Origin: Gemmatimonadota bacterium
Lineage (GTDB): Bacteria > Gemmatimonadota > Gemmatimonadetes > Gemmatimonadales > Gemmatimonadaceae
DNA: 64,000 nucleotides
Assembly: GCA_016191225.1 (NCBI GenBank)
Contig: JACPPC010000003.1
Coordinates: 1 to 64,000 of the forward strand
Reading direction: 5' to 3'
Shown here: in pieces, positions 7,508 through 27,040 of the stretch
Layout of the letters: each line of letters starts with the position of its first letter
How positions within the stretch are numbered: the stretch's first letter is position 1
The notes under the pieces: model-generated
Databases searched by the model: none
Told to the model about the DNA's origin: nothing
Seen by the model: the letters and a program-made list of their open reading frames with translations, nothing else
Translations under genes and position numbers: made by a program

Positions 7508-9058
7508 CTAGCCCCCCGGTATCGCCCGCCCGTGGCACGCCACGCACACCGACGGGTTCTTGGCCTTCGCCGTCGCGGCGTTGAACCCTGGCCCATGCGG
7601 ATTGAACCGGTAGCCGCCGCCCACCGCCGAGTGACAGGCGGTGCAGTCGCGCTCGGCGTGGCACGAGGCGCACGACTCGAGACTCTGCCGCGCCGCTTGG
7701 CCGTGCCCCAGGCTGAAGCCGCGAAACGCGTCGTGGTACCCCGTACGCCCGATCCGCCGCCTCGCCACGAGCCCCGACTGCTGGTGGCACGCCTGGCAGA
7801 ACTGCGCGGGGTTGTGGCACTCGCTGCAGTTCATCTCGCGCGAGTACGCCGAGGCCGGATGGCGCGTGAGGAACCCCTGCGCGTGGTATCGTGCCTGGCG
7901 GCTCCCCTCGGGGCGGTGGCACTCGAGGCAGGTCGAGCGCAGGTGACAGCTCTCGCAGGTGGCGGGGCGGGCGCTCGCCTGCGGCCCATGGCGCTCCTTG
8001 AAGTCGCTGGTGTGGCTCGCCGGCGGCACCCGCTTGAGGTGCGCCCCCGGCGCGCGCCCGGGGCCCGCGGTGGGCATCGTGGTCACGGCGCGCGGCGGGA
8101 TCCCGACATGGCAGCTGAAGCAGCTTTCGCGCGAGTGGCAGCTCGAACAGGTGGCCGTCGACCGCTCGGCATCGCGGCCATGGAAGCCAAGCCAGCCCGC
8201 CGCGCGGTGCGTGGGCGGCACCGGCTGCGTGCCCGTGTACACCGGCGGCCGGTCGTCGAGCGCGAGTGACAGGATCACCGGCGATTCGGCGGCGTTCACG
8301 TGGCAGCTCATGCACAGGTTGCGCGAGTGGCAGGTGGCACAGCTCGCCGCCACGGTGGGGTGCTCTCCCGGCAAGCGCCCCGGCACCTTGGCCGCCCTCC
8401 CGTGCCCGCCGAGCACGAAGTCGGCCGCGGCATGCGACTGCGGCTTGGGGAAGGTCTTGATCCATTCGCGGGTAAGGCTCGGCGCGTCGGTGAGGCGCAC
8501 GTGGCAGGTGGCGCAGACCTCGTTGCCGTTGTCCACGTGCGGCGCCTTGAGCCCGTGGCACTGCAGGCAGTTGCCGACCACCGCATTGCGCACCGCCATG
8601 CGCGGCGCCCCGGGCTCGGTGTGGCAGCCGGCGCAGTTGCGCATCATCGCGCTGTCGGCGGGGTTCCTGGCCGCGGCGGCCTTGCCGTGCGCCTCGTGCG
8701 TGAACCGGCGGTTCCCGGCGCGCGGCCCCACCCGCGGCTCCCATGTGATGCGCGGCTTGACCGTGCCGTCGTGGCACGACGCGCACCCCTGCGCCGTGGG
8801 CCACATCGACTGTCCCGGATCCACCACGCCGGCGTGGCACGAGGTGCAGACCGGGAAGACCTTGGCGTGCTTGTCGTGCGGGAACCGCGTCGGCGAGGCT
8901 GCGCGGGGCTGGGACACCGTCGCCACCTGCGGCAGCGCGAACGCCGCGCGCCACGGCAGGGCGAGGGCGAGCACGGCGCTCGCGACGAGCGCCATCGGCG
9001 CGATCGCCCCTCCCACGCGCGCCATCCTCGCGGCCCCCGCTCCCAGGCTCGGGCTCAT
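7508..9058 (-). CDS. Exported 16-heme cytochrome c
   Basis: A 516-residue protein with an N-terminal signal peptide (hydrophobic MALVASAVLALAL ending near AFA) and sixteen CxxCH heme-attachment motifs: CTSCH, CASCH, CAGCH, CLQCH, CATCH (twice), CMSCH, CSSCH, CFSCH, CESCH, CLECH, CSECH, CQACH, CASCH, CTACH and CVACH. Extra histidines between motifs (FPHDKH, FTHEAH) could be distal ligands. No lipobox or C-terminal membrane anchor is seen, so it is periplasmic or outer-face. ATG 9058 overlaps the stop of the barrel gene (ATGA). It is the last gene of the cytochrome operon. By analogy with porin-cytochrome conduits it could be the heme wire associated with the barrel. There is no CxxCK, so it is not NrfA. 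Confidence 0.9.
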   Translation of the reverse strand: MSPSLGAGAARMARVGGAIAPMALVASAVLALALPWRAAFALPQVATVSQPRAASPTRFPHDKHAKVFPVCTSCHAGVVDPGQSMWPTAQGCASCHDGTVKPRITWEPRVGPRAGNRRFTHEAHGKAAAARNPADSAMMRNCAGCHTEPGAPRMAVRNAVVGNCLQCHGLKAPHVDNGNEVCATCHVRLTDAPSLTREWIKTFPKPQSHAAADFVLGGHGRAAKVPGRLPGEHPTVAASCATCHSRNLCMSCHVNAAESPVILSLALDDRPPVYTGTQPVPPTHRAAGWLGFHGRDAERSTATCSSCHSRESCFSCHVGIPPRAVTTMPTAGPGRAPGAHLKRVPPASHTSDFKERHGPQASARPATCESCHLRSTCLECHRPEGSRQARYHAQGFLTRHPASAYSREMNCSECHNPAQFCQACHQQSGLVARRRIGRTGYHDAFRGFSLGHGQAARQSLESCASCHAERDCTACHSAVGGGYRFNPHGPGFNAATAKAKNPSVCVACHGRAIPGG

Positions 9059-10536
9059 CGCGGCAAGGGCCGCGCGCGCGGCAGTGGCGTGCGGTCCGCT
9101 CCCGAGCCGACCGCCACGCTGAACCCGGCGCGCAGCCGGAGTTGCGAAAGCGACGACGCGCTCGCGTCGGGGCGGTACCGGTCGTCGCTCACGAGCGCGG
9201 CGTCGCACCACACCCGGTGCTGGGGCGAGAACTGCCATTCGCCGCGGCCGCCGATCCAGCGGCTCGTGGCGTCGTAGTAGCGCAGTTCGAGGGGGCGGGC
9301 CAGGCTCCCGGCGTACAGGTCGACCGAGAACACCGCGCTCGGCGCCCACGTCACCGACGCGTCGGTGAACCGCCCCGCGGCGCCGGGGCCGCGCTCCAGG
9401 CCGAAGCTTCCCTCGAGGGTCCATGCGGTGCCCACCGTCGCCGTCGCGCCCGTGCTCATGCGCCACCCACCGGCTTCGAGGCGCGGCACGATCGACGTGT
9501 TGATTTCCGCGTTGTCATAGCGGTACGACTCGCCGCGGGCGTTGAGCGAGAGCCAGCCGTTGGGCCGCACCTGCGCCGAGGCCGTGACCGCGTTGTAGGG
9601 CACGGGGCTGAAGGCGCCCCATAGCGTCCAGAGGCTGAAGTAGGGGACGTAGCGACGCGCGCCGACGGTCACCGCGTACCGCGGCTGAACGTACGTGAGC
9701 GCGAGTTCGGTGGTGCCCATCTTCCCCTCGGCCATGTTGTACTGCGTGCCGCCGCTGGCGCGGAACGGTCCGACCTGTGCGCCCAGCGACAGCGCCGTCC
9801 GCTCCGACACGAAGTTTCCGTCCTCGGGGTCGATCTCGCGGCGGTACTCGGCCCGGGCGTCGATCCACCGGAAGCGCCAGGTCGCCTCGGCGCCGCCGAG
9901 GATCTGGCGATCGCGCGGGCGCCATTCGTCGAGCGGGTTGAGCGCCGGATTGCTCGCCGTGACCGCGGCCGCCTGCCCAAGCCCCCAGCCGCCGTAGCCG
10001 GTGAGCTCCAGCGCGGCGTCGTCCCACCGCACCTTGAGCCACCCGCCGTCAAAGCCGATCGGCTCGAGCCGCGACGCCACGAGCTGCCGCCCCACGCGCA
10101 GCGTGACCGGCGACCGCTGGTACTCGACGTAGCCCTCGAGGAGCTGCGCGTTGGGCGTCGTCCCCGGCCAGGGGGCGTCGCCGCCGGCGTCGGTCACGAG
10201 CCGACCGGTGGCGCGAACGGCGAGTCCCTCGACGCCGAGGCCCCACAGCACCATGCTCGCCGAGACAGCCACCGGGAGGGCGCGCAGCTCGGGGCCCGGC
10301 CGCAGGTAGTAGCAGTATGGCCCGTTGTTGCAGCGCAGGGCGAAGCCATCGGGCGTCACGAGCCCGCCGCTCGCCGTCGGCACCGCGAGCGCGGCGTCGA
10401 TGCTGTCGGGCGCGAGCCCGCGATACGAGATGGCCTGTGCCCTCGCGTCGAGGCGAATGCGGTAGTCCTGCGCCGCGGCGGGAAGGGTCCACGCCGCCAG
10501 CGCCAGGGCGGCCACGAGGGCGCGGAGCGCGGTCAT
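9055..10536 (-). CDS. Outer-membrane beta-barrel protein of the cytochrome operon (porin-cytochrome type)
   Basis: A 493-residue protein with a signal peptide ending PAAAQ and then long runs of alternating polar/hydrophobic residues rich in Gly, Tyr, Trp and Arg. This is the pattern of amphipathic strands of an outer-membrane barrel. Near residue 70 a CxxxxxxC pair (CNNGPYC) could form a disulfide. The start overlaps the stop of the 20-heme cytochrome gene and its stop overlaps the 16-heme gene start, so the three products are made together. Family resemblance to MtrB/PioB or Geobacter Omb barrels is by context and architecture; I see no diagnostic motif. It could instead be a general substrate porin. 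Confidence 0.75.
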   Translation of the reverse strand: MTALRALVAALALAAWTLPAAAQDYRIRLDARAQAISYRGLAPDSIDAALAVPTASGGLVTPDGFALRCNNGPYCYYLRPGPELRALPVAVSASMVLWGLGVEGLAVRATGRLVTDAGGDAPWPGTTPNAQLLEGYVEYQRSPVTLRVGRQLVASRLEPIGFDGGWLKVRWDDAALELTGYGGWGLGQAAAVTASNPALNPLDEWRPRDRQILGGAEATWRFRWIDARAEYRREIDPEDGNFVSERTALSLGAQVGPFRASGGTQYNMAEGKMGTTELALTYVQPRYAVTVGARRYVPYFSLWTLWGAFSPVPYNAVTASAQVRPNGWLSLNARGESYRYDNAEINTSIVPRLEAGGWRMSTGATATVGTAWTLEGSFGLERGPGAAGRFTDASVTWAPSAVFSVDLYAGSLARPLELRYYDATSRWIGGRGEWQFSPQHRVWCDAALVSDDRYRPDASASSLSQLRLRAGFSVAVGSGADRTPLPRARPLPR

Positions 10537-12611
10537 CGCGGCACCCGCGAAACCAGCTTCGCCTTGTGCGCCTCGGGCTCGGCGAGGAAGTGGCAGCTGG
10601 TGCACTCGCGCTGGTCGTTGTGTCCCTGCGCCTTGCTCGCGTGGCAGGTGGCGCAGAAGCTGCGCGTCGGCACGAGCCGTGCGATCGTGGTGGCGGTGTG
10701 GCAGGCATCGCAGCGCTGGTGCGTGACGTCGGCGGGGGCGTGGGCGGCCTTGGGATCGGGAATCTTGTGGCACCCCGAGCAGTCGCGGCGGGCCGAGTGA
10801 TGGTCGCTGTGGCAGTCCTTGCACGTGACCGTGGTCGGCGCGGGCGCCATCGTGACCGGCGTGACGTGGCAGTCCGTGCAGGCCTTGGAGACGTGCTTCT
10901 CGTGCAGGAAGCCCACCGTGCGCGCGTTGGCCGGCCGGCCCGGCACGGTCACCGTCACGGTCACGCGCCGCACCGCGCCGTACTTCTCCTTGTGGTGGCA
11001 GCTGGCGCACTTGTCGGGCGTCGGCGACTGGTGGTGGCAGATCGCGCAGCCGCGCGGCCGCTCGAAAGTGAGCCGGCCGTGCCCCGACCCGGTCTGATGG
11101 CATTCCAGGCACGCCCGTTTCGCGTGCCTCGCATGGGGAAAGCTGTCGGTGGGGGAGGGCGGGGGGGGGCGCGCGGCGACGGCCCGTCCTTGCGGCGATC
11201 GCGGCGTCCCCCGGGCCGGTTCGGGGAGGGACTCCGCGGCCGGCCCGTCGCCGCCCGTTGGGAGCTCGGCGCGGCCGGCGTCGTCGTCGGCGGCGAGGAA
11301 TGGCCCGTGCCAACGCCCCTCGCGCGGCGCCACGCCCGCCGCCGGCCCCGCGCCCCTCGGAGGCCTGGGGGTCGCGGCCGGAGCCGGGGCGGCCGGGCGC
11401 AGCGCCTTGACGGTGTCGAAGGCAACCGGTGGCCTGGGCCCGCCGCTCTCCCGCACGCGCGTGTGGCACCCCTGGCACTCGCTCGCGTCCACTCCCGCGC
11501 GGTGAGGCACGTGGCAGGTGAGGCAGCTCGAGGCGACCTTGCGGTGGTTCTCGCCGGCGTGGAACGGCTTCTCGCGATAGTCGTCATGGCACCCCGAGCG
11601 GGCGCAGCTCTTGGCCGCGGCCGCCGGGGTCTTCTGCGTGTGCGGGTTGTGGCAGGCGCCGCACTTGCCGCCGTGCGGGTCGCGCCCCTCGTCGAAGTCC
11701 TTGAGGACCTTCTGCATCTCGTGGCAGCCCAGGCACTGGGGCTTGCCGGGCACGAGCGTCCCGCGCGCCGAGTCGCGCGTGGCGAGGGCGGGGACGTCCT
11801 CGGTGAAGCCGTGGCAGCTCGTGCAGTGGCGCACCGTCTGGGTTTCCATCTTGCCCAGCACGACCGTCGTGTTCCTGGCGTCGTGGCAGTTGCTCTGGCC
11901 GCAGGTCTTCTCCACCGGCCGGAACTGGTGCACCTCGACGCCGTGGCAGGTCACGCACTGCAGGTTCTTGAGCACCGCCGAGTCCGACTCGAGGTGCACG
12001 CGATGGCCGGCGGTGCCGGCGATCCGCTTCCACTTGGCGGTGTCGCCGGTGACGTGGCAGGTGCGGCAGACCTCGTTGGGCACCTTGGCGTGCTTGCCGA
12101 TCTCCCTCGGCCGGTTGGCGACCCACAGGTAGAGCTGCCGCATGCTGGCGTAGAGCGGCTGCTGGTGGCAGTTGTGGCACGACAGCTTGCCGTGCTTGTT
12201 CTCGGCGTTCGAGAAGCGCTGGAACGCCTGGTTCATCACGTGGCAGCCGGTGCAGAAGTCGTTGTCGTTCTGCGTGTAGTTCCAGGTCGCGGCGCCGGCG
12301 CCGCCCACGGTGGCGAGCACCAGCACGCCGGCGAGCGCCAGCCCCCAGCGCATCGCCAGCTCGCTGGCGCCGAGCCAGGCGGCGATCCTCGCGCGCCGCA
12401 GCCACACCCAGCGCACGGCGAGGAGGCCGACGACGCAGGCGACGGCGAACAGCGTGATCTGCAGCCACGTGGGAATGCTGTTCAGCAGGAAGCGCACGAC
12501 CACCGCCACGCCGCCCGGGAGGGGCGACGTGACGACGGTCGAGTCGACCAGGGCGCCGTGCGATTGCCCGAGCGCCGCTGCCGGGTGCGCTACCCCGGCA
12601 ACGGCGCTCAT
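10533..12611 (-). CDS. Membrane-anchored NapC/NirT-type 20-heme cytochrome c
   Basis: A 692-residue protein from ATG 12611 (ATG 12623 is also possible). Two membrane segments lie at about 48-70 and 88-110, then a NapC-like start (NDNDFCTGCHVMNQAFQRF, first Cys 120). There are 18 CxxCH and two CX4CH motifs (CGQSNCH and CARSGCH). Eleven motifs precede and nine follow a heme-free Pro/Ala-rich linker of about 100 residues. NapC-type proteins take electrons from menaquinol, so this protein probably links the quinone pool to periplasmic carriers. The linker codons contain a run of nine G on the plus strand at 11161-11169. It follows the lipoprotein gene by 34 bp and overlaps the barrel gene. Confidence 0.88.
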   Translation of the reverse strand: MSAVAGVAHPAAALGQSHGALVDSTVVTSPLPGGVAVVVRFLLNSIPTWLQITLFAVACVVGLLAVRWVWLRRARIAAWLGASELAMRWGLALAGVLVLATVGGAGAATWNYTQNDNDFCTGCHVMNQAFQRFSNAENKHGKLSCHNCHQQPLYASMRQLYLWVANRPREIGKHAKVPNEVCRTCHVTGDTAKWKRIAGTAGHRVHLESDSAVLKNLQCVTCHGVEVHQFRPVEKTCGQSNCHDARNTTVVLGKMETQTVRHCTSCHGFTEDVPALATRDSARGTLVPGKPQCLGCHEMQKVLKDFDEGRDPHGGKCGACHNPHTQKTPAAAAKSCARSGCHDDYREKPFHAGENHRKVASSCLTCHVPHRAGVDASECQGCHTRVRESGGPRPPVAFDTVKALRPAAPAPAATPRPPRGAGPAAGVAPREGRWHGPFLAADDDAGRAELPTGGDGPAAESLPEPARGTPRSPQGRAVAARPPPPSPTDSFPHARHAKRACLECHQTGSGHGRLTFERPRGCAICHHQSPTPDKCASCHHKEKYGAVRRVTVTVTVPGRPANARTVGFLHEKHVSKACTDCHVTPVTMAPAPTTVTCKDCHSDHHSARRDCSGCHKIPDPKAAHAPADVTHQRCDACHTATTIARLVPTRSFCATCHASKAQGHNDQRECTSCHFLAEPEAHKAKLVSRVPR

Positions 12612-12645
12612 CTTCGGGACCATCGGCAGGTGGGGCGTAATCGGC

Positions 12646-14223
12646 TTACCTGCGCGGAGGCAAGGATGCGGTGTGCAGCGTGGCGTTGAACGGCCCGCCA
12701 ATCCTGGGGCCGCCCAGATTGGCCGGCATCACCGCGGAGGCGACCGGCAGCCCGTAGTAGGTCTTGACGTAACTGATCGTGGCCACGAGCAGGGCTTCGC
12801 AGAGGAACGGATTGTGCACGCCCTTCGAGCTGTCGGTGTTCGACTGGCCGTACTCGCCGCACAGCCGGGCGTTGAACTCCGCGCCCTCGGCCGGCGTGAT
12901 CTTGCCGTCGGTATTGCTCCACTCGCCCGGCATGGTGCTCTTGAGCGTGGCGAGCAGGCCGCCGTCGGCCGGGGCCGCCGTGATCGAGAGACTGCCGTTC
13001 GCGTCCACCCAGAGCTGGTCCGTGTAGAACTTCATGCGGGCGCGCACGGTGGCGAAGGCCGAGGCGGCCACGGCCGCGGTCGCGTGGCACCCGGACTGCG
13101 TGCACGACTTCCACGACCGGGCGGTCTCGGAGTAGGCGCAGGTCTTGTCGGCGGTCGGCTTGCCCGTGGCGTCCAGGCAGGGAATCGGCCGGAAGAGGTG
13201 GCCGGTGGACTGGAACGTGAACGCACCGGTCGCCGCGTCGGTCACGGTCAGCCGCGTCACGTGGCAGCCGGCGCAGAGGCGCGGGTTCGCGCCCGTCGCG
13301 TGCGAGCCATAGATCGCCGTCGTGTCGTAAATGAAGCCCGGCGGCCGCCAGCCGGCCTCGCCCAGCAGCACCGCGCCCTGCGGTGCGTGCGGCGAACTGC
13401 TGGTGACCAGCGGCTCGCTGCGCCGCATGTGGCACTGCATGCACAGGTTCTGCGACGGGTCGTTCGAGGTGATCGAGAGCCGCAGCTGGCGCGTGTTTTC
13501 CGAGCCATGCGGCGCATGGCAGACGGCGCAGGTCGTCGGCTGGTAGGCCGTGGCCGAGTCACGCTCGGCGTAGTTGGTGCCGCCGTCCCATCGCTCCAGC
13601 GCCTTGCGGCCGTCGTGGCAGGCGGCGCAGCCGGACGACACGTTGCTCGCCGCCGGGATGTACACGACGTTGTGCCCCGATGCGGCCCACTCCTCGGCGA
13701 ATGGCGAGTGCGTTCCGGTGTGACAGTCACCGCAGTTGCCCTTGCCCGTCATGGCGAGGCGGGCCAGCGGCCGCACGATCGAGGCGGCCCCAACCCCTTC
13801 CACATGCGCCTGGCCGGGGCCGTGGCAGTTCTCGCACTGCACGTCATAGTAGGTCGAGTCCTTGACCGCCTGATACCCGACCACCGTGCCCTGCAGCTTG
13901 TTGCCGTTGCCCGTCACCGCGTGGCACTCGAAGCAGCTCGCCGCCTTGCCGGGACTGTTGTTCGCGTCGGTCCACGCACTGGCATGCTTGGTCGTCACCC
14001 AGCTGGCCTGGAGCTCGGCGTGACAGTTGCCGCAGGTCGTCCGCTTCGTCGACGCCTGGTAGTAGCCCAGGAATCCGCTCGCCGCGTCCTTCGGCGGGTT
14101 GAACGGGGCCCGGTCCCTGTAGACGATCTTGTCGCTGGTATTGCACCCGGCGAGCGTGAGGGCCGCCACGGCGGCGGCCGTCAGGAGCCGATTGATCCGG
14201 GTGGTCGCTCGATCTTTGCGCAT
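12646..14223 (-). CDS. Nine-heme lipoprotein cytochrome (cytochrome c554-like N terminus)
   Basis: A 525-residue lipoprotein: a short signal ends in the lipobox LAGC. Eight CxxCH motifs and one CX4CH (CTQSGCH) are present. The order CGNCH, tryptophan/TKHASAW, CFECH, then VQCENCHGPGQAH is the pattern of the cytochrome c554-like family. About 150 C-terminal residues lack heme motifs. The lipid anchor suggests attachment to the outer membrane, possibly exposed at the surface as a terminal reductase or contact site. It is the first gene of the minus-strand operon, divergent from the Mo-enzyme operon. Confidence 0.88.
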   Translation of the reverse strand: MRKDRATTRINRLLTAAAVAALTLAGCNTSDKIVYRDRAPFNPPKDAASGFLGYYQASTKRTTCGNCHAELQASWVTTKHASAWTDANNSPGKAASCFECHAVTGNGNKLQGTVVGYQAVKDSTYYDVQCENCHGPGQAHVEGVGAASIVRPLARLAMTGKGNCGDCHTGTHSPFAEEWAASGHNVVYIPAASNVSSGCAACHDGRKALERWDGGTNYAERDSATAYQPTTCAVCHAPHGSENTRQLRLSITSNDPSQNLCMQCHMRRSEPLVTSSSPHAPQGAVLLGEAGWRPPGFIYDTTAIYGSHATGANPRLCAGCHVTRLTVTDAATGAFTFQSTGHLFRPIPCLDATGKPTADKTCAYSETARSWKSCTQSGCHATAAVAASAFATVRARMKFYTDQLWVDANGSLSITAAPADGGLLATLKSTMPGEWSNTDGKITPAEGAEFNARLCGEYGQSNTDSSKGVHNPFLCEALLVATISYVKTYYGLPVASAVMPANLGGPRIGGPFNATLHTASLPPRR

Positions 14224-14637: not shown

Positions 14638-16983
14638 ATGAGTCCGGTCGACCGCAGGACGTTCCTGAAGGGAATCGCCACCATCTCGGCGGCGACCGCC
14701 GGCTCGGCGGTGGCTCCGGCCCTCGGCCTGCCCGTGGCCGGGGACCTCGTTGCCGCCGCCGAGCCCGCACCCTCCTGGAAGCGGACGCCCTGTCGCATGT
14801 GCGGCGTCGGCTGCGGTCTCCTGGTGGGAATCGAGAATGGCCGCGCCGTGGCCGTGCGGGGCGATCCCGATTCGCCGGTGAGCAAGGGGCTCGCCTGCGC
14901 CAAGGGCTACTATGCCGTGCAGGCCCTCTATGCCCGCGACCGGATCACCCGCGCGATGGTCCGCACCAATGGCACGCTCGCCCCGGTGCCGGTGGCCGCC
15001 GCCCTCGACCTCGTGGCCCGCCGCCTGCGCGAGACGGTGGAGCGGCACGGCAAGGACAGCGTCGCGCTGTACGGCTCGGCGCAGTGGACCGTCCCCGATG
15101 CCTACGTCGCCTCGAAGCTCTTCAAGGGTGCCCTCGGCACCAACAACGTCGAGAGCAGCTCGCGCCTCTACGCCGCGAGCGCCATGGCCGGCCTGCAGGG
15201 GACCTTCGGCCTCGACGGCGCGATCGGCTGCTACGAGGACATCGAGCACGCCGACGTCTTCGTGCTCTGGGACGAAAACCTCGCCGAGACCGAGCCCGTG
15301 CTCTTCTCGCGCATGCTCGACCGGCGGCGGCGCGACCCCGCCGTGCGCATCGTCGACCTCGCCACGCGCACCACCCGCACCAGCTACGCCGCCGACGCCT
15401 CGCTGCTCCTCGCGCCGCACTCGGCGTCGGCGGTCGCGAACGCGATCTGCAACGAGCTGGTCGAGCGGCGGTGGGTGCGCCGCGAGTTCGTCGACCGGCA
15501 CGTGGCCTTCAAGCGGGGCCCGGAAGGGATCGGTCACGGGCTGGCGAGCGACGCCCTCGTGCCCGACGACGCCTCCAGCGCCACGTGGGACCAGTACGTG
15601 AAGTTTCTCGGCGACTACTCGCCGGAGCATGCGGCGCGCGTCTCGGGACTCGCCGCCGATCGCATTCGCTGGCTGGCGTCGCTCTATGGCGATCCGCAGC
15701 GCCGCGTCATGTCCGTCTGGGGCGGCAACGCCAACCGCCACTCGCGCGGGACCTGGCTCAACAACCTGCTCTACAACATCCACCTGCTCGTGGGGAAGGT
15801 CGCCTCGCCCGGCAACAGCCCGTTCTGCACCACCGGGCAGCCGGGGGGGGGCAGCGCCGTGCACGACGCCGGCACCCTCTCCCACACGCTCCCCCGCGGC
15901 GTGGTGACCGACGAGCGCGACCGGCGCCGCGCCGCCGGGATCTGGGGTGTGCCCGCCGACCGCATCGATCCCAGGCCCGCAGGCCACGCGCTCGCCATGT
16001 ATCGCGCCCTCGAGCGCGGCGACATCCGCTTTCTCTGGATCCAGGCCACCAACCCGATGGTCAGCCTGCCCAACGTGGATCGCTACCGCGGCGCCGCGGG
16101 CCGCGACGACCGGTTCATCGTCGTCTCGGAGGCGTACCCCACCGCCACCACCGACGTCGCCGACGTGGTGCTGCCGGCGGCCCTCTGGTTCGAGCGCGAG
16201 GGGGTCTTCGCGAGCATGGAGCGTCGCCTGCAGCACTTCGAGCGCATGACCGCGCCCCCCGGCGACGCGATGGGCGACGCCTGGCAGATGATCGAGGTCG
16301 CCCGCCGGCTCGGGCACGCGTCGCTCTTCCCGTGGGACCGTCGCGACCACGCCGCGAAGGCCTGGGAGGAGTACTCCCGCTTCCACGACGACGCCGGCAG
16401 CGCGCTCCCGGCGCTCGCCGCCCTGCAGGCGAAGCCCGGCCTGCAATGGCCGTTCACCGGCGCGCGCGAGACCCGCTGGCGCTACAACACGGCGCACGAC
16501 CCCCGCGCCGACCGTGCCCGCGGCGACTTCGACTTCTACGGGCACGCCGACGGCCGCGCCTGGGTCTGGCTCCGCCCGCACGACGCCCCCGCCGAGGCGC
16601 CCGATCGCGCCTATCCCCTCTGGCTCGTCTCGGGCGCGGTGCTCGAGCACTCCGGCGCGGGAGCGCTCACGCAGCGCATCCCCACGCTCCATCGGGCGGT
16701 CCCGCGCGCGTACGTGGAGGTCAACCGCGACGACGCCGCGCGGCTCGGCATTCGCGACGGCGAGCGGGTGCTCGTGCGGAGCCGCCGCGGTGCCCTCGAG
16801 CTCGATGCCCGCATCGACTACCGCTCCCAGCCCCCGGCCGGCCAGCTCTTCATTCCCTCGTTCGACGAGTCCATGCCGGTCAACCGGCTGATGCTCGACG
16901 CGAGCTGCCCCGTGTCGGGACAGCCGGCCACGAGCACCTGCGCCGTGCGCCTCGAGCGGCTGGGTGCGGGCGGCGGCGCATGA
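14638..16983 (+). CDS. Tat-exported NapA-like molybdopterin oxidoreductase lacking the Mo-ligand Cys
   Basis: A 781-residue protein with a twin-arginine signal (VDRRTFLKG). The [4Fe-4S] site is C52-x2-C55-x3-C59...C87. The whole chain aligns by eye with periplasmic nitrate reductase NapA (GCYEDIEHAD, GTWLNNLLYNIHLL, TGQPGGGSAV, then a C-terminal molybdopterin dinucleotide domain with VLEHSGAGALTQRIP). NapA has a Cys in RxCMASA that binds Mo. Here the same place reads RLYAASA, so the ligand is Tyr178 or absent. An extra Cys397 replaces the usual Ser in PFSLTGQP. Substrate is therefore uncertain; ordinary nitrate reduction is doubtful. It overlaps the next gene by ATGA. ATG 14638 is chosen because it gives the Tat signal. 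Confidence 0.88.
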   Translation: MSPVDRRTFLKGIATISAATAGSAVAPALGLPVAGDLVAAAEPAPSWKRTPCRMCGVGCGLLVGIENGRAVAVRGDPDSPVSKGLACAKGYYAVQALYARDRITRAMVRTNGTLAPVPVAAALDLVARRLRETVERHGKDSVALYGSAQWTVPDAYVASKLFKGALGTNNVESSSRLYAASAMAGLQGTFGLDGAIGCYEDIEHADVFVLWDENLAETEPVLFSRMLDRRRRDPAVRIVDLATRTTRTSYAADASLLLAPHSASAVANAICNELVERRWVRREFVDRHVAFKRGPEGIGHGLASDALVPDDASSATWDQYVKFLGDYSPEHAARVSGLAADRIRWLASLYGDPQRRVMSVWGGNANRHSRGTWLNNLLYNIHLLVGKVASPGNSPFCTTGQPGGGSAVHDAGTLSHTLPRGVVTDERDRRRAAGIWGVPADRIDPRPAGHALAMYRALERGDIRFLWIQATNPMVSLPNVDRYRGAAGRDDRFIVVSEAYPTATTDVADVVLPAALWFEREGVFASMERRLQHFERMTAPPGDAMGDAWQMIEVARRLGHASLFPWDRRDHAAKAWEEYSRFHDDAGSALPALAALQAKPGLQWPFTGARETRWRYNTAHDPRADRARGDFDFYGHADGRAWVWLRPHDAPAEAPDRAYPLWLVSGAVLEHSGAGALTQRIPTLHRAVPRAYVEVNRDDAARLGIRDGERVLVRSRRGALELDARIDYRSQPPAGQLFIPSFDESMPVNRLMLDASCPVSGQPATSTCAVRLERLGAGGGA

Positions 16984-17813
16984 CGGCCGCTCCCCGCGGG
17001 CGCTCCGCCCTGCCGATGCGCCTCTTCCTCGCCGCCTCGGCGGTGGTGGCGACCGCGGCGCTCGTCGTCGGTGGCCGTCGGGTGGCCTCCGGCCGCGCGG
17101 CCGCCGCGCGCGCGCTGGCCGACCGGCTGCCCGTGGCCGTGGTCGTGGCCGAGCCCCCCGCCGAGCCGATCGCCGCCGAGGCGCAGGTGTTCCGCACCCG
17201 GGCGGCCGCGCTCGCGATCGAGCCGTCCACGGAGCGGCGGCGGCCGGCGCATCCGCGATCCCTCGCGACCTGGCGCTCGCTGCGCGCCTATCCCGGGGCG
17301 CCGCCGCGCGTGCCGCACGGGCTCACCCCGGCCGAGTTCCGCACCGGCGGCTGCAAGACCTGTCACGAGCGCGGCGGCTTCTCCGAGCGCTTCGGCGCCT
17401 ACGTGCCCCTCACGCCGCATCCGCAGATGGGGGCCTGCCTGCAGTGCCACGTCGGCAACGCCACGCTGATGGCGATCGCGCTCCCCAGCACCGAGCCGAG
17501 CGCGCGCTGCCGCCAGTGCCACGCCCCGGGCGCCATGAAGTGGCGCGACTCGTCGCTCGCCTGGGCGCCGATGGCGTGGCCGAAGCTGGCGCCGGTCACC
17601 AGCGGGCGCACGCCGCCGCCCATCCCCCACCGGCTGCAGATGCGCGAGAACTGCCTCTCCTGCCACTCCGGCCCGTCCGGTGTCATGGAAATCCAGACCA
17701 GGCACCCCGAACGCGCCAACTGCCGGCAGTGCCATGTGCCTTCGACCGGCGACGTCGCGCCCTTCGTTCGCGTCGCACAGGGTGGCGGCCTCCGTCCCGG
17801 GTTCGCGCCATGA
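16980..17813 (+). CDS. Five-heme NapB-like cytochrome c
   Basis: A 277-residue exported or N-terminally anchored protein (hydrophobic LFLAASAVVATAALVV near residues 15-30). Five CxxCH motifs: CKTCH, CLQCH, CRQCH, CLSCH and CRQCH. The pattern PHGLTPAEFRTGGCKTCH, the PLTPHP motif and RENCLSCH...ANCRQCHVP resembles NapB, the diheme partner of NapA, extended by three hemes. It probably receives or delivers electrons for the molybdoenzyme, whose gene it overlaps by 4 bp. The following gene also overlaps. Confidence 0.85.
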   Translation: MTAAPRGRSALPMRLFLAASAVVATAALVVGGRRVASGRAAAARALADRLPVAVVVAEPPAEPIAAEAQVFRTRAAALAIEPSTERRRPAHPRSLATWRSLRAYPGAPPRVPHGLTPAEFRTGGCKTCHERGGFSERFGAYVPLTPHPQMGACLQCHVGNATLMAIALPSTEPSARCRQCHAPGAMKWRDSSLAWAPMAWPKLAPVTSGRTPPPIPHRLQMRENCLSCHSGPSGVMEIQTRHPERANCRQCHVPSTGDVAPFVRVAQGGGLRPGFAP

Positions 17814-18565
17814 CCGGGCGATCGCTGCGTCTCGGCGCCGCCGGCCTCGCCGCCGCGTTCCTGGCCCTCGGCTGCGGCCAGCGCGGTGGCGCGCCGGCGC
17901 GTGAGCGCGATGGGGGCGAGCGCGTGCACAACATTCCGTCGTCGGGGGCGGCGATCGCGCACGTCGACTCCGAGCAGGCGGCGCGCAACGCGACCCGCGA
18001 GCCGGGCGCGCTCGAGACCGTCACCGCGGGACCGGTCGCCCCGTGGAAGGGGCCCGGTGGCAAGCCGTTCGAGGTCGCCCTCCGCACCGCCGACCCGACC
18101 ACCGCCCTCGCCCGCAAGTTCGGCACGATCACCCTGCAGACGTCGGCCCGGGCGCGCGCCCCCGACCTCGGGCAGTATCCCTGCACCTCGTGCCACCTCG
18201 GCCGAAAGATCACCCTCGCCGAGAAGCGCATTCCCGACGCCCACCAGAACATCAAGCCGCAGCACCCCAGGCAGACGGGAGGTGCCTGCAAGACCTGCCA
18301 CGCGCCCGACAACGTCGAGCTGCTCGCGCTCCAGAGCGGCGAGCGGGCGACCCTCGACCACACCTACCGCGTGTGCGCCCAGTGCCACTTCGCGCAGGCC
18401 AACGCCTGGGCCGGCGGCGGCCACGGCAAGCGGCTCGACGGCTGGCAGGGGCGCCGCGTGCTGATGGGCTGCGCCGACTGTCACGACCCGCACAAGCCCG
18501 CGCTCGAGCGGCGCATCCCCTTCCGCGCGCCGGTACTGGCGCGACCGAGAGCCGACGACCCATGA
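17810..18565 (+). CDS. Tetraheme cytochrome c lipoprotein
   Basis: A 251-residue protein with a lipobox (LALGC) after a short signal. Four CxxCH motifs: CTSCH, CKTCH, CAQCH and CADCH. The first ~100 mature residues carry no heme and are Ala/Gly/Arg-rich, a likely spacer from the membrane. Both ends overlap neighbours by ATGA. A role as an electron shuttle subunit of the Mo/Fe-S/NrfD complex is inferred from the operon. Confidence 0.82.
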   Translation: MTGRSLRLGAAGLAAAFLALGCGQRGGAPARERDGGERVHNIPSSGAAIAHVDSEQAARNATREPGALETVTAGPVAPWKGPGGKPFEVALRTADPTTALARKFGTITLQTSARARAPDLGQYPCTSCHLGRKITLAEKRIPDAHQNIKPQHPRQTGGACKTCHAPDNVELLALQSGERATLDHTYRVCAQCHFAQANAWAGGGHGKRLDGWQGRRVLMGCADCHDPHKPALERRIPFRAPVLARPRADDP

Positions 18566-19539
18566 GCGACGCCCGCCTGACGGACCCTGCCGTGGATGCC
18601 GCCGACGCCACGCTCCTGCAGAAGCGCGTCGACCGGCGGCGTGCCCTCGGGATCCTGCTCGGCGGCGCGGCCGTCGCCACGCAGGCGGCGGCGGCCTGCT
18701 CGCCCGTCGCGCCCCTCTCCGACGAGGAGCGCGAGGTCAAGCTCCTCGCCTGGCGCGAGTACATCAAGGGGAACTACCGCTTCATGACCGAGGCCGAGCG
18801 CGCCGAGACCATCGCCCGGCTCGAGCGCATCGCCAAGGTCAAGCGCGGCGTCGACGTCCGCATCCAGTCCACCGGCGCCCAGCCGGGGGTGGAGTTCGGC
18901 TACGCCTTCAACATCTCCAAGTGCAAGGGCTTCCGCAGCTGCGTCCAGGCCTGCATCAACGAGAACAACCTCGACCGGCGCGCGGCCACCCAGTACATCC
19001 GCATCTTCGAGATGGAGAACGGCGTCGTGGACCTCGAGGAGGCCGACGCGACCTTCCAGCACGAGGTGCCCGCCGAGGGGCACTTCTACATGGGCACGCA
19101 GTGCTTCCAGTGCGCCAACCCGCCATGCGTCAAGGTCTGCCCCGTTGGCGCCACCTGGCAGGAGCCCGACGGCATCACCGTGATCGACTACGACTGGTGC
19201 ATCGGCTGCCGCTACTGCATGGCGGCCTGCCCGTACTGGGCCCGGCGCTTCAACTGGAGCGAGCCCGAGGTGCCGGTCGACCAGCTGAACCCGAACCAGC
19301 ATTACCTCGGCAACCGCGCCCGCAAGACCGGCGTGGTGGAGAAGTGCACCTTCTGCATTCACCGCACGCGGCAGGGCCGGCTCCCGGCGTGCGCCGAGGC
19401 GTGCCCGACCGGGGCGCGCGTGTTCGGCAACCTGCTCGACCCCGACTCGGAGATCCGCTGGGTGCTGGCGAACAAGAAGGTCTTCCGGCTCAAGGAAGAC
19501 CTGAATACCGAGCCGCGTTTCTGGTACTTCACCGACTGA
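18562..19539 (+). CDS. Tat-exported 4Fe-4S dicluster (DmsB/NrfC-like) subunit
   Basis: A 325-residue iron-sulfur protein with a twin-arginine signal (VDRRRALGILLGG) and a Cys at 46 that may be a lipid site. Four cluster sites are visible. Site 1 reads C121-KGF-RS-C127-VQA-C131: the usual second Cys is Phe124, so it has only three Cys and may hold a [3Fe-4S] or altered cluster. Sites 2-4 (CFQCANPPCVKVCP, CIGCRYCMAACP, CTFC...CAEACP) look complete. The family carries electrons between a catalytic molybdo-subunit and an NrfD-type membrane subunit. Both neighbours fit this. Confidence 0.9.
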   Translation: MSDARLTDPAVDAADATLLQKRVDRRRALGILLGGAAVATQAAAACSPVAPLSDEEREVKLLAWREYIKGNYRFMTEAERAETIARLERIAKVKRGVDVRIQSTGAQPGVEFGYAFNISKCKGFRSCVQACINENNLDRRAATQYIRIFEMENGVVDLEEADATFQHEVPAEGHFYMGTQCFQCANPPCVKVCPVGATWQEPDGITVIDYDWCIGCRYCMAACPYWARRFNWSEPEVPVDQLNPNQHYLGNRARKTGVVEKCTFCIHRTRQGRLPACAEACPTGARVFGNLLDPDSEIRWVLANKKVFRLKEDLNTEPRFWYFTD

Positions 19540-19546
19540 GGCCAAC

Positions 19547-20836
19547 GTGCACTTGTGGGCATTCGGGTTGAGCGCGCTGCGGTCGGCCACCACCGGGGGC
19601 CGGCGCTACCATGTGTGGATGGGCACCCTCACGCTCATCATGCTCGTTGGCGCGTACGCCTACTCGCTGCAGCTCCGCCATGGCCTCGGCGTCACCGGCC
19701 TGAGCGACCACGTGAGCTGGGGACTGTACATCTCCAACTTCACCTTCCTCGTCGGCCTCGCCGCGGCCGCGATGATGCTCGTCCTCCCCGCGTACATCCT
19801 GCACGACGTGGATTTCAGCCGTGCCGTGCTCATGGCCGAGGCGGTGGCCGTCTCGGCGCTCGTGATGTGCCTCTCGTTCGTGGTCGTGGACATCGGCAAC
19901 CCGCTCGGCGGCTGGCACCTCCTGCCCGGCATCGGCTACCTGAACTGGCCGCGGTCGCTCCTCGCCTGGGACGTGCTCGTGCTGAACGGCTACCTGGCGA
20001 TCAACCTCGCCATCCCGTTCTACATCCTCTACAGCCGCTACTGCGGCCGCGCCCCCGACAAGCGCAAGTACCTCCCCTGGATGTACCTCGCGGTGATGTG
20101 GGCGGTGAGCATCCACCTCGTCACGGCCTTCCTCCTCGCCGGCCTCCCCGCGCGGCCGTTCTGGAACACTGCGCTCCTCGGCCCCCGCTTCCTCGCCTCG
20201 GCCTTCACCGCCGGCCCCGCCTTCGTCATCCTCCTCCTCTCGTTCATCAAGCGGGAGACGAGCTACCCGATCGCCGAGGGCGCCTTCACCAAGCTGGCGC
20301 TGATCACCACCGTCGCGGCGCAGATCAACTTCGTCATGCTCGGCTCGGAACTGTTCTACAAGTTCTACTCGCCCACGCTCCACGGCATCAACGCCCGGTA
20401 CCTCTTCTTCGGCGTCCACGGCCACCACGCGCTCGTGCCGTGGATCTGGACCGCGATCGGGCTCGGCGCCGCCGCGACGCTGGCGCTCATGATCCACCCC
20501 ATCCGGCGCAACCCGCGCTACCTGGCGATCGCCTGCGCCGCCCTGTTCGTCGGCATCTGGGTGGAGAAGGGGATCGGCCTCGTCGTGCCGGGCTTCGTCC
20601 CGTCACCGCTCGGCGAGCTCGTCGAGTACACCCCGAGCCTCGTGGAGCTGGGTGTCACCGCCGGCATCTGGGCGCTCGGCATGTTCGTCCTGACCGTGCT
20701 GGTCCGTGTGGCACTCCCGATCGAGCTCGGCCAGGTGCGCAGTCCGTACCTGGACGACACCCCCGCCGCGCCGATCGTGCGCCCGCGCAGTTCCCGCGTG
20801 GCCGCCCGCGACACCGGGCCGGTGCGCACCCGCTGA
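19547..20836 (+). CDS. NrfD/PsrC-type integral membrane quinone-interacting subunit
   Basis: A 429-residue protein with about ten hydrophobic segments. GTG 19547 is 7 bp after the Fe-S gene. Features of the NrfD family include an N-terminal helix pair, DHVSWGLYISNFTFLVGLAAAA and a repeated eight-helix core, followed by an Arg/Pro-rich tail. NrfD proteins oxidise or reduce menaquinone on the outer side of the membrane and pass electrons to the Fe-S partner. Together with genes 14638-18565 it predicts a quinone-linked molybdenum complex. Confidence 0.9.
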   Translation: MHLWAFGLSALRSATTGGRRYHVWMGTLTLIMLVGAYAYSLQLRHGLGVTGLSDHVSWGLYISNFTFLVGLAAAAMMLVLPAYILHDVDFSRAVLMAEAVAVSALVMCLSFVVVDIGNPLGGWHLLPGIGYLNWPRSLLAWDVLVLNGYLAINLAIPFYILYSRYCGRAPDKRKYLPWMYLAVMWAVSIHLVTAFLLAGLPARPFWNTALLGPRFLASAFTAGPAFVILLLSFIKRETSYPIAEGAFTKLALITTVAAQINFVMLGSELFYKFYSPTLHGINARYLFFGVHGHHALVPWIWTAIGLGAAATLALMIHPIRRNPRYLAIACAALFVGIWVEKGIGLVVPGFVPSPLGELVEYTPSLVELGVTAGIWALGMFVLTVLVRVALPIELGQVRSPYLDDTPAAPIVRPRSSRVAARDTGPVRTR

Positions 20837-20885
20837 TGCGACCGCCGGCAACCGGCCGGCCGACTTTCCCCTTGAGGTGATGACC

Positions 20886-21821
20886 ATGTCCCGACATGCC
20901 CCGAACGACACCCGGTACTCGATCGCCGCCCTCGCCGCCGGGGCGGTGGGCGCGGCCGGCATTGCCGGCGCGCTCTTCCTGCTGGGCGCCCCCCTTCCCC
21001 TCGTGGCCGGCGTGGGGCTGGTGGCGGGCGTCTTCGTCGCCGCCGCCATCAAGTACACCGACCAGTGGGAGAAGGCGGTGCTGATGCGGCTCGGCAGCTA
21101 CCGCGGCCTGCGCGGCCCCGGCTACTTCGCCGTGGTGCCGATCATCGACCGCGTGGCCTACACCATCGACCAGCGCATCCGCACCACCGCCTTCGGCGCC
21201 GAGTCGTGCCTCACCCGCGACACCGTGCCGGTGAACGTCGACGCGATCGCCTTCTGGATCGTGCGCGACGCCGAGCGCGCCGCCCTCGAGGTGCAGGACT
21301 ACGACGAGGCCGTGATCCTCTCCGCCCAGACCGCCCTCCGCGACGCGATCGGCAAGCATGACCTCGCCGAGCTCATCCAGTCGCGGGTGGAGCTCGGCCA
21401 CGGGCTCAAGGAGGCGCTCGAGCAGAAGATGATGACCTGGGGAATCCAGGTGCAGTCGGTCGAGATCCGCGACGTCATCATCCCGGCGGCGCTCGAGGAC
21501 GCGATGTCGCGCCAGGCGCAGGCCGAGCGCGAGCGGCAGGCCCGCATCATCCTCGGCACGGCGGAGACCGAGATCGCCCACAAGTTCGTCGAGGCGGCGG
21601 CGGCGTACAAGAACCACCCCGAGGCGATGAACCTGCGGGCGATGAACATGCTCTACGAGAGCATCGTCAAGCGCGGCTCGCTGATGGTGGTCCCGTCGGG
21701 GCTGTCCGACTCGCTCAACGTGCCGTCGCTGATGGGGCTCGCGGGGGCCGCGAAGCTGGCGCCCCACGACGCCCTCGCCGCCGCCACGGTCGCACCGGTC
21801 AAGGCGGGCGCGGCGCAGTAG
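20886..21821 (+). CDS. Slipin/stomatin-like SPFH-domain membrane protein
   Basis: A 311-residue protein with two hydrophobic segments near the N terminus (residues ~15-55) and a complete SPFH/Band-7 domain (KYTDQWEKAVLMRLG, VPIIDRV, SCLTRDTVPVNVDA, ALRDAIGKHDLAELI, QVQSVEIRDVIIP). ATG 20886 is chosen because a GAGGTG lies 6 bp upstream; an ATG at 20880 directly abuts that motif. Family members scaffold membrane complexes and help quality control. It is 49 bp downstream of the NrfD gene and could organise that complex. Confidence 0.85.
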   Translation: MSRHAPNDTRYSIAALAAGAVGAAGIAGALFLLGAPLPLVAGVGLVAGVFVAAAIKYTDQWEKAVLMRLGSYRGLRGPGYFAVVPIIDRVAYTIDQRIRTTAFGAESCLTRDTVPVNVDAIAFWIVRDAERAALEVQDYDEAVILSAQTALRDAIGKHDLAELIQSRVELGHGLKEALEQKMMTWGIQVQSVEIRDVIIPAALEDAMSRQAQAERERQARIILGTAETEIAHKFVEAAAAYKNHPEAMNLRAMNMLYESIVKRGSLMVVPSGLSDSLNVPSLMGLAGAAKLAPHDALAAATVAPVKAGAAQ

Positions 21822-22619: not shown

Positions 22620-23150
22620 TCAGGGAGCGGGCGGGGACGGCGGCGGGGACGCCGCGGTTCCGGTCCAGCGCCGCACGAGCATGGCGACGAACGCCAGCCC
22701 GCCGATGACGAGGAGCACCGGGAAGGCGTACAGCAACTTGTTGAGGCCGGTCATCGACGGCTCGAGCAAAATCCACTCGCCGTACTTCGACACGAAGTAG
22801 GCACGCACCTGGTCCGGGCTCTCGCCCGCGCGCAGCCGGTCCTTGACCAGGGTGCGCATCTGCTGCGCGAGCTCCGAGGGCGACGCCTGGATCGACTCGC
22901 CCTGGCAGACCGGGCAGCGCAGGGTGCGCGCCACGGCGGCCGTCCGCTCGTCGAGCGCCGAGTCGGCGGCCGAGTTGGCGGCCGAGTTGGCGGCCGAGTT
23001 GCTGGTGCCGGCGGCGGTTGGAGCCGATGCGGGGGCGCTCGTGGCGGCCGGCGCAGTCCCTTGCGCCGCGCGGTCCTGTGCCCGCGCGGGGCCCGCCAGG
23101 CACAGCGCGGCGCCCAGCGCCGCCAGCGTGGCGATCGTGCGCCGGCTCAC
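22620..23150 (-). CDS. ccmH: Cytochrome c maturation protein CcmH
   Basis: A 176-residue periplasmic thioredox protein anchored by a C-terminal membrane helix (LLYAFPVLLVIGGLAFVAMLV). The LRCPVCQG motif supplies the Cys pair that keeps apocytochrome CxxCH thiols reduced. A signal peptide (ALGAALCLAGPARA) and an Ala/Ser/Asn-rich spacer, partly coded by a 12-bp repeat, precede it. GTG 23150 overlaps the ccmG stop (GTGA). No CcmI-type TPR extension is attached. Confidence 0.92.
   Translation of the reverse strand: MSRRTIATLAALGAALCLAGPARAQDRAAQGTAPAATSAPASAPTAAGTSNSAANSAANSAADSALDERTAAVARTLRCPVCQGESIQASPSELAQQMRTLVKDRLRAGESPDQVRAYFVSKYGEWILLEPSMTGLNKLLYAFPVLLVIGGLAFVAMLVRRWTGTAASPPPSPPAP
22957..23001. 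repeat. 12-bp tandem repeat inside ccmH
   Basis: About 3.75 copies of gccgagtyggcg in tandem. They encode a repeated Ser-Ala-Ala-Asn/Asp spacer in CcmH. Copy number is a multiple of three bases, so expansion or loss keeps the frame. Confidence 0.8.
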
Positions 23151-23740
23151 CGGCCCGATCCCCGCGACGCGGGCGCTCGCGTCGCCTTGTCGGACACCAG
23201 CGAGTCGATCCATGTGTGCAGCACCGCCCGCGTGATCGCCCCGGTGTGCTTGTAGGTGATCCGCCCCGCGGGATCGATGATGAACGTCTCGGGGACGCCG
23301 TACACACCGTAGTCGATCGCCATTCGCGCCCCGGGGTCCAGCAGCGCCGGGTAGCTCTGGCCCCCCAGCCCGGCGATCCATCGCAGTGCGTCGGCGGGGC
23401 GGTCGTTGTACAGCACGCCCACGAACTGCACCGGCCGGCCGATGTAGTCGCGCGCCGACGTGGTGAGCGCCTCGTGCTCCTCGCGGCAGGGAATGCACCA
23501 CGACGCCCAGAAGTTCACCACCAGCACCTTGCCGCTGAACTCCCGCAGCCGCAGCGTGTCGCCCACCGTTCGCGCCAGCGGCCCCTCGCCGGTCGCAAAC
23601 ACCGGCAGGGCGAACGCCGGCGCCGGGCGCCCGGGGAGCGGCGACGGGATGTCCGCGGGGTTGCGCGTGAACCCGAACTTGAACAGCCACAGCAGCGGCA
23701 GCGCCGCCACCACGGCCACGAAGGCGCGCTTCCAGTTCAT
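23147..23740 (-). CDS. ccmG: Thiol:disulfide interchange protein CcmG/TlpA family
   Basis: A 197-residue membrane-anchored thioredoxin-fold protein. An N-terminal helix (residues ~6-20) is followed by NFWASWCIPCREE, whose WCxxC motif is the redox site, and the cis-Pro segment GVPETFIID. It supplies reductant to CcmH or the apocytochrome. The start overlaps the ccmF stop (ATGA) and the stop overlaps ccmH. Confidence 0.92.
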   Translation of the reverse strand: MNWKRAFVAVVAALPLLWLFKFGFTRNPADIPSPLPGRPAPAFALPVFATGEGPLARTVGDTLRLREFSGKVLVVNFWASWCIPCREEHEALTTSARDYIGRPVQFVGVLYNDRPADALRWIAGLGGQSYPALLDPGARMAIDYGVYGVPETFIIDPAGRITYKHTGAITRAVLHTWIDSLVSDKATRAPASRGSGR

Positions 23741-25707
23741 CGGGCGCTCGCCGCCAGCCGGCGGCCCCGCTGGAACATCCCGATCGCCGCCCCCAGCACG
23801 ACCACGCCGCCGCCGAACCAGATCCACGGCACGAGCGGCTCGACGATCACCTTCACCGTCGCGTTCCTGCCGCTCTGCTCGAAGGCCATCAGGTTGGCGT
23901 ACAGGTCGCCCTTGAGGCTGCTGCGCACGTCGGGGGTCGGCACGGGCTGGTCCGACACGCGGTAGTAGTTCATGCGCGGCGTGATCGTGCCGATCACCGA
24001 GCTGTCGGCGCCGAGCACCTCGAGGGTGGCGCCGATCACCGACCGCTGCGGCTCCTCGCGCCCCCACACGTCCTTGAGCCGCACCGTGTGCCCGCTCACG
24101 GTGAGCCGCTCGCCCGGCACCAGCGTGGCCTCGCGCTCGGTCCGCCACGTCGCCGACGCGGCGATGCCGAGCGTGACGATCAGGATGCCGACATGGGCCA
24201 CGTAGCCGCCGTACCGACGCGGGTTGGCGGACATCACCCCGGCCAGCGCCCGCACGTAGTTCTCGCCGTGCGCCGCGTGCCGGGCGCGCATCGCGATCCA
24301 GTACTCGCGCAGGTTGCCCACCACCGCGTAACCGACGAAGGCGAAGGCGATGATCGCCCACGGCGCGCGCGCCCCCGCCACCAGCGCGATCGCCCCGAGG
24401 AGCACCGCGCCGATCACGCCGGGCATGAGCCGCTTCCGCGCGTCGGCCCACGATGTGCTCCCCCACGGGAGCGCCGGGCCCACCCCCATCAGGAAGACCA
24501 GCGCCACCATCGCCGGCACCGCCATCCGGTTGAAGAACGGCTCCCCCACGCTCACCTTCACCCCACGCACCGCCTCCGCCACCAGCGGGTAGAGCGTCCC
24601 CACGAGCACCGTCAGCATCACCGCGGTGAGGAACAGGTTGTTGAGCAGGAACACCGTCTCGCGCGACGCCGCCCCGCCCAGCGTCCCCGCCGTGCGGATC
24701 TTGTCCGAGTTGCCGGCCACCAGCACCAGCGTCGCCAGCAGCACCAGCGCGATGAACCCCAGGAAGTAGTAGCCGATCGTGCCGGTGGTGAAGGCGTGCA
24801 CCGACGACAGGATCCCCGACCGCGTGAGGAAGGTGCCAAGGATCGTCAGCACGAACGTCGCCACGCACAGGTTGAGCGTCCACAGCCGCAGCATGTTGCG
24901 CCGCTCCTGCACCATCACCGAGTGCAGGTACGCGGTGGCCGTGAGCCACGGCAGGAACGACGCGTTCTCCACCGGGTCCCACGCCCAGTAGCCGCCCCAC
25001 CCCAGCACCTCGTACGACCACCACATCCCGGCGATGATCGCCGCGCTCAGGAAGGCCCACGACCCGAGCATCCAGCGCCGCGACAGGATCGCCCAGTCGT
25101 TGGTGGCCGCCTCGCCGGAGAAGATCGCCCCCGCCGCGAACGCGAACGGCACCGACATCCCCACGTAGCCGAGGTAGAGCAGGGGCGGGTGTACCGCCAT
25201 CAGGATGTGGTTCTGCAGCAGCGTGTTCGGCCCCGGGCCGTCGGCCGGCACCGGCGACACCGGCAGGAACGGGTTGGCCGGTCCCACCAGCAGGATCGCG
25301 AAGAAGGCCGACACCGCGAGCAGCGTCATCGCCGCGTACGGCACCAGGTTCCCCGGCCGCCGCTGGTGCAGCCAGACCACCGCCGCCGCGTACAGCGCCA
25401 GCACCCAGGCCCAGAACAGGATCGAGCCCTCGAGCGCCCCCCACAGCGAGATGATCGTGAACAGGAGCGGCGTCGAGCGGCTCCCCACCGCCGCCACGTA
25501 CGACACCGAGAAGTCGTGCGTGACGAGCGCCACGAGCATCGCCCCGGTGGCGATGCTGACGAGCAGGAAGTTGGTGTAGACGGCGCCGTACGACAGCTGC
25601 AGCCACTCGCGCCGGCCGGTGCGGATTGCCACCGGCGTGACCACGACGCCCAGCGCGACCACCACCACCGACACCAGCAGGGCACCCTGCGCGAGGAGTC
25701 CGGTCAC
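23737..25707 (-). CDS. ccmF: Cytochrome c heme lyase subunit CcmF
   Basis: A 656-residue polytopic membrane protein with many helices. The heme-handling WWD signature is present (GGYWAWDPVENASFLPWL), together with the WGALEGSILFWAWVL segment. CcmF works with CcmH to attach heme to CxxCH. GTG 25707 overlaps the ccmE stop (GTGA). Length fits the family. Confidence 0.96.
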   Translation of the reverse strand: MTGLLAQGALLVSVVVVALGVVVTPVAIRTGRREWLQLSYGAVYTNFLLVSIATGAMLVALVTHDFSVSYVAAVGSRSTPLLFTIISLWGALEGSILFWAWVLALYAAAVVWLHQRRPGNLVPYAAMTLLAVSAFFAILLVGPANPFLPVSPVPADGPGPNTLLQNHILMAVHPPLLYLGYVGMSVPFAFAAGAIFSGEAATNDWAILSRRWMLGSWAFLSAAIIAGMWWSYEVLGWGGYWAWDPVENASFLPWLTATAYLHSVMVQERRNMLRLWTLNLCVATFVLTILGTFLTRSGILSSVHAFTTGTIGYYFLGFIALVLLATLVLVAGNSDKIRTAGTLGGAASRETVFLLNNLFLTAVMLTVLVGTLYPLVAEAVRGVKVSVGEPFFNRMAVPAMVALVFLMGVGPALPWGSTSWADARKRLMPGVIGAVLLGAIALVAGARAPWAIIAFAFVGYAVVGNLREYWIAMRARHAAHGENYVRALAGVMSANPRRYGGYVAHVGILIVTLGIAASATWRTEREATLVPGERLTVSGHTVRLKDVWGREEPQRSVIGATLEVLGADSSVIGTITPRMNYYRVSDQPVPTPDVRSSLKGDLYANLMAFEQSGRNATVKVIVEPLVPWIWFGGGVVVLGAAIGMFQRGRRLAASAR

Positions 25708-27030: not shown

Positions 27031-27040
27031 CAGTGGGCCT

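Follow-up and report, generated by a model that had tools for sequence, protein, structure and literature searches.

Three independent Mo cofactor losses have been counted among MopB proteins, all of them in old and distantly related lineages (PMC10100899). Among the known complexes in which a MopB protein serves electron transfer, the QrcABCD menaquinone reductase joins a molybdoenzyme-like subunit thought to be cofactor-free to FeS, NrfD-type, and multiheme cytochrome subunits; alternative complex III (ACIII), a quinol:cytochrome c oxidoreductase, uses the MopB domain B1 of ActB as a scaffold; and NuoG/Nqo3 of complex I is Mo-free. AioA and IdrA represent another solution, in which Mo-bisPGD and catalysis are kept and the metal is held without a protein ligand. 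We analyzed a stretch of 64,000 nucleotides (the window) from a soil bacterium of the Gemmatimonadota, in which MopB, FeS, NrfD-type, and multiheme cytochrome genes likewise stand within one operon (Table 1). Its MopB protein, encoded at 14638-16983, has its nearest homologues in NapA (TIGR01706 / NF010055), and its sequence points to a NapA-derived pseudoenzyme, Mo-free or at least unligated, that was probably retained as a [4Fe-4S] relay and scaffold between a quinone module and multiheme cytochromes.

Homology to NapA extends over the full length of the protein and includes the domain order, the [4Fe-4S] motif, the bridging Lys, and the Tat signal. NapA crystal structures also match, and an AF2 model (mean pLDDT 89) superimposes on Cupriavidus NapA 3ml1 with a TM of 0.91. 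The NCBIfam NapA models were the top matches, yet both scored below their cut-offs (709 vs. 904 and 697 vs. 930.55 bits). Unlike NapA, the protein lacks the Cys ligand, bis-MGD contacts, and NapD, and its quinone module is of the DsrO/DsrP type, whereas classical Nap uses NapC/GH. The other systems differ as well. QrcB belongs to a separate lineage and holds no redox cofactor, whereas the NapA-like protein keeps its [4Fe-4S] ligands and is by sequence not QrcB-type (66 bits against a cut-off of 440). ActB is a fusion from the ArrAB lineage whose B1 domain has no prosthetic group, whereas the present protein is NapA-derived, unfused, and equipped with FeS ligands; NuoG/Nqo3 is cytoplasmic, of another lineage, and has other partners. 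The AioA model scored 95.8 bits (cut-off 359), compared with 697-709 bits for NapA, and the MGD site is eroded here, unlike in AioA/IdrA.

Table 1. Features of the NapA-like operon and the adjacent cytochrome cluster, in window coordinates.
Feature	Position	Strand	Remarks
NapA-like subunit without Mo ligand	14638..16983	+	781 aa, Tat-type N-terminus MSPVDRRTFLKG
[4Fe-4S] C52, C55, C59, C87, then K89 (E. coli K83)	14791..14898	+	kept in all covering clade members
Tyr178, codon TAC, NapA Mo-ligand Cys position (E. coli C179)	15169..15171	+	from alignment
Cys397 codon, PFCTTGQP	15826..15828	+	Cys in 6/16 core members only
Pentaheme c-type cytochrome, weakly NapB/NrfH-like	16980..17813	+	5 CXXCH
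Tetraheme c-type cytochrome, probable lipoprotein	17810..18565	+	4 CXXCH
DsrO/QrcC/NrfC-like ferredoxin subunit, Tat-like N-terminus	18562..19539	+	cluster Cys kept in all compared operons
DsrP/NrfD-like membrane quinone subunit	19547..20836	+	above NCBIfam DsrP cut-off
Octaheme cytochrome lipoprotein, DmsE/MtrA-like	12646..14223	-	divergent; start assigned from lipoprotein signal
18-heme cytochrome, NapC/NrfH-like membrane N-terminus	10533..12701	-	start uncertain
Probable outer-membrane beta-barrel	9055..10536	-	signal peptide, no heme motif, no family match
16-heme cytochrome	7508..9058	-	

An earlier note on this DNA had proposed that Tyr replaces the Mo-ligand Cys. Indeed, HMMER pairs RLYAASA with the RHCMASA motif of NapA from Cupriavidus, E. 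coli, and Rhodobacter, which places Tyr178 at the position of the NapA Cys (E. coli C179); the second substitution described in the note, Cys397 at the Ser of PFSLTGQP, was likewise borne out by the alignment (PFCTTGQP). Its statement that the remaining motifs persist held for the four [4Fe-4S] Cys (CX2CX3CX27C) and GQP, and only partly for the cofactor motifs, with several bis-MGD contacts lost too. The same change was sought in relatives drawn from GTDB contigs and from family-wide and phylum-wide genome searches, most of these genomes being MAGs, and a non-Cys residue was found in 16 further sequences. All 17 non-Cys sequences sampled are from Gemmatimonadota, except for one on a MAG contig labelled Zixiibacteriota, and on the tree they require a single change; the 16-row core clade has a support of 100, and the sequence L074 is basal to it (94). 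Within the core, the ligand site is Tyr in 12 members and Phe, His, Thr, and Glu in one each, and Cys in none. Tyr is thus not a fixed or conserved substitute ligand.

Several observations accompany this survey. The non-Cys operon on the contig binned as Candidatus Zixiibacteriota (L008) may reflect misbinning or horizontal transfer. Selenocysteine, or a stop codon read through, at the ligand position was rejected, since the aligned genes contain no internal stop and the only one found lies past the gene end. The source genome encodes further MopB proteins (C3:122609, C11:54075, and C12:106643-108532), none of them NapA; the protein on C3 carries the motif STCRECAAACG and may be an ActB-type subunit.

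For the wider cofactor site, we used the bis-MGD contact positions annotated for E. coli NapA in UniProt/HAMAP. Their numbering was checked on the PDB alignment, and both pterin patches were confirmed from a study in which G213, N215, E218, R720, V721, H724, W725, and H726 are conserved pterin contacts of NapA, G213 lying in the other patch from R720 and H726 (PMC13223375). All core rows covering these positions lack counterparts of N175, C179, G213, D264, R720, H726, and K819, which are present in all Cys-type NapA, as well as in three NasA-like enzymes that are only ~30% identical. Among the other pterin contacts, N215 and E218 are kept in the core, V721 and H724 mostly kept, and W725 lost in about half of the members; the equivalents of E. 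coli M180 and D. desulfuricans Glu156 are gone in all of them. Across columns near-invariant in 57 Cys-type NapA, the mean loss was 0.46 at MGD contacts vs. 0.21 elsewhere, with a p-value (0.0017) that is only indicative because the rows are related. Relative to the rest of the protein, MGD positions were better retained by a factor of 1.4-1.9 in Cys enzymes, 1.6 in L074, and 1.0-1.3 in the core.

Other parts of the site persist. The four FeS Cys, K89, and Q149 are fully retained throughout the clade, R370, whose NapA counterpart lies over the active site, persists too, and W211, N214, E217, G666, and E670 of the pterin patches remain. L186, G194, D212, D219, and D410 are newly conserved in and around the pocket, a pattern that suggests remodelling under selection rather than decay alone. 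The basal L074 (L074 / L098, G385:C51) has Tyr at the ligand (RLYTASA) and retains the equivalents of WGAN, NQHTRG, R720, and K819, together with NapD, which suggests that the ligand and a few neighbours were lost first, with most MGD contacts and NapD still in place. Structure prediction, which the earlier note had recommended for the Mo pocket, supported the NapA fold and did not separate the pocket state from that of a Cys-type control model (L083). Residues 401-410 and 671-680 had equally low pLDDT in both models, so that pocket confidence does not discriminate and was rejected as a sign of an empty pocket.

Nap activity in E. coli requires NapD, which binds the Tat signal of NapA (PMC4159696). 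We found napD immediately before napA in 46 of the 48 Cys-type operons whose upstream sequence was long enough, the exceptions being L073 and a broken gene in L048, and in one of 15 non-Cys operons, the sole case being the basal, transitional L074. Neither the Pfam NapD model nor an operon-tuned profile detected NapD in 13 core genomes (the source genome G000 and 12 others). Since the clade has a single origin, this loss is one evolutionary correlation rather than 14 independent ones. A Cys-type NapA with an intact pocket (L102 / G189) was also observed in a 99% complete genome in which no NapD was detected; there, a multiheme/barrel cluster lies upstream on the same strand. The source genome is able to make the Mo cofactor, and its MoaC and MobA-like genes led us to reject missing Moco synthesis as proof of a Mo-free state. 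Weak MobA scores occur in some clade genomes and in Cys-type genomes as well.

The rate of change set the NapA-like subunit apart from its partners: the NapA-like/ferredoxin divergence ratio was 1.78 in the non-Cys clade vs. 0.97 and 0.84 in Cys-type groups. Pairwise dN/dS of the subunit in this clade was 0.08-0.17, and it is therefore still under purifying selection. Losses of conserved columns in the two quinone-module subunits of the clade were 3.2% and 2.4%, and the DsrO-like subunit, whose score in the window is just below the cut-off, retained every aligned cluster Cys. Heme counts in non-Cys operons equal those of the nearest Cys-type operons, and Cys-type operons with the same five-gene set occur in Desulfobulbales, Bacteroidota, Acidobacteriota, and Gemmatimonadota. 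The order NapD-NapA-cytochrome-cytochrome-DsrO/DsrP-like was seen in Cys-type operons of Desulfobulbales, Acidobacteriota, and Bacteroidota (for example L012, L022, and L030), a Nap architecture in which a DsrOP-type quinone module takes the place of NapC or NapGH.

The adjacent 8/18/16-heme and barrel cluster resembles a porin-cytochrome conduit, which would be its putative role. It was rejected as a feature specific to the non-Cys clade, since such a cluster adjoins the Cys-type L102 and L108 too. A few kilobases from the multiheme cytochrome operons lie genes for cytochrome c maturation on the minus strand (22620-28416: CcmH, CcmF, a CcmC-like assembly protein, CcmB, and, where CcmA would stand, an ABC ATPase), and an SPFH/Band 7 protein (20706-21821, plus strand) immediately follows the DsrP-like gene.

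Because both NapD and the residues that hold the Mo cofactor have been lost, the NapA-like protein is probably a retired enzyme rather than a nitrate reductase; the absence of Mo itself is what the lost site residues would predict. The ancestor was presumably a Cys-ligated NapA in a five-gene membrane complex with two multiheme cytochromes, a DsrO-like and a DsrP/NrfD subunit, and NapD encoded upstream. In one Gemmatimonadota lineage, the Mo ligand would have been lost, later followed by most of the specific bis-MGD contacts and NapD, with no loss of fold, Tat export, the N-terminal [4Fe-4S] site and its lysine, or any partner subunit. As for the electron route and its direction, we infer that electrons are exchanged between DsrP/NrfD and the quinone pool, that DsrO carries them outward, and that the NapA-like subunit would relay them through its [4Fe-4S] site and serve as a docking scaffold for the penta- and tetraheme cytochromes. 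These may in turn connect to the 8/18/16-heme and beta-barrel cluster and through it, probably, to extracellular acceptors or donors. In the simplest account, the NapA complex lost oxyanion reduction while its quinone/cytochrome electron transfer survived, similarly to Qrc and ACIII from other MopB lineages.

The earlier note had offered a new substrate or a non-catalytic role as outcomes of the altered Mo site. The latter is better supported, by the variable ligand (Y/F/H/T/E), the losses on the pterin and guanine sides, and the missing NapD, and a new catalytic activity is compatible with the sequence. Against a pseudoenzyme speak the Moco synthesis genes, the pterin-patch residues and R370 that remain, the newly conserved positions, and the likeness of the AF2 models of the protein and a Cys-type relative; the NapD argument is weakened by the Cys-type operon L073, and the QrcB/ActB B1 precedent by the FeS site, which is lost there but kept here.

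The main rival is an active Mo/W enzyme without a protein metal ligand, in the manner of AioA/IdrA, acting on a new substrate through the same quinone module. We regard it as unlikely but a serious possibility: the metal of AioA/IdrA needs no residue ligand (PMC10100899), and Tat export, the FeS site with its Lys, R370, the new pocket conservation, and the Moco synthesis genes all agree with it, but the pterin and nucleotide contacts R720, H726, K819, and D264 are gone with mixed replacements, NapD is lost, and the faster rate is confined to the NapA-like subunit. More doubtful is a repurposed pocket, in which D212, D219, D410, G194, and L186 would line a site holding some other cofactor, a metal, or a small molecule, or else unligated Mo/W with new chemistry, within a quinone-to-outer-membrane pathway. 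It appears very improbable that the protein is an ordinary nitrate reductase tolerant of these changes. Campylobacter jejuni NapA C176D does reduce nitrate, with reduced activity (PMC12769810), and the overall fold match is high; however, the core has lost the M180 and Glu156 equivalents along with the ligand, several pterin contacts, and the NapD that E. coli requires, and the protein scores under both NapA cut-offs.

Slighter still is the chance that Mo is bound by Tyr178, alone or together with Cys397, in a tuned NapA. Tyr is the most frequent residue at the site and could in principle bind metal, but close relatives carry Phe, Thr, His, or Glu, further MGD contacts are lost, and the far longer Tyr would probably require the pocket to shift by several angstroms. 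Residue 397, the candidate for a compensating ligand, is Cys in only 6 of 16 core members; as neither residue is conserved in the clade, their role as Mo ligands is unsupported. A sequencing error at 15169-15171, which the earlier note had considered, or an assembly error or decaying pseudogene can practically be dismissed, for although L069 and L086 sit on long branches and their pockets diverge further, one Gemmatimonadota clade of 17 sequences lacks the Cys, independent genomes share this state in full-length frames, and dN/dS is low.

Among open-licence papers, which cover the literature in part, we found no description of this non-Cys clade. If Mo-free, this clade would represent a younger, NapA-derived loss with close Cys-type relatives. 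These relatives, the transitional L074, and an operon shared by both types would make the change from enzyme to electron-transfer scaffold traceable stepwise and experimentally testable. In the Gemmatimonadaceae, the family of the source genome, all napA matches found (8/8) lack the Cys, a caution against calling nitrate reduction from such matches in Gemmatimonadota.
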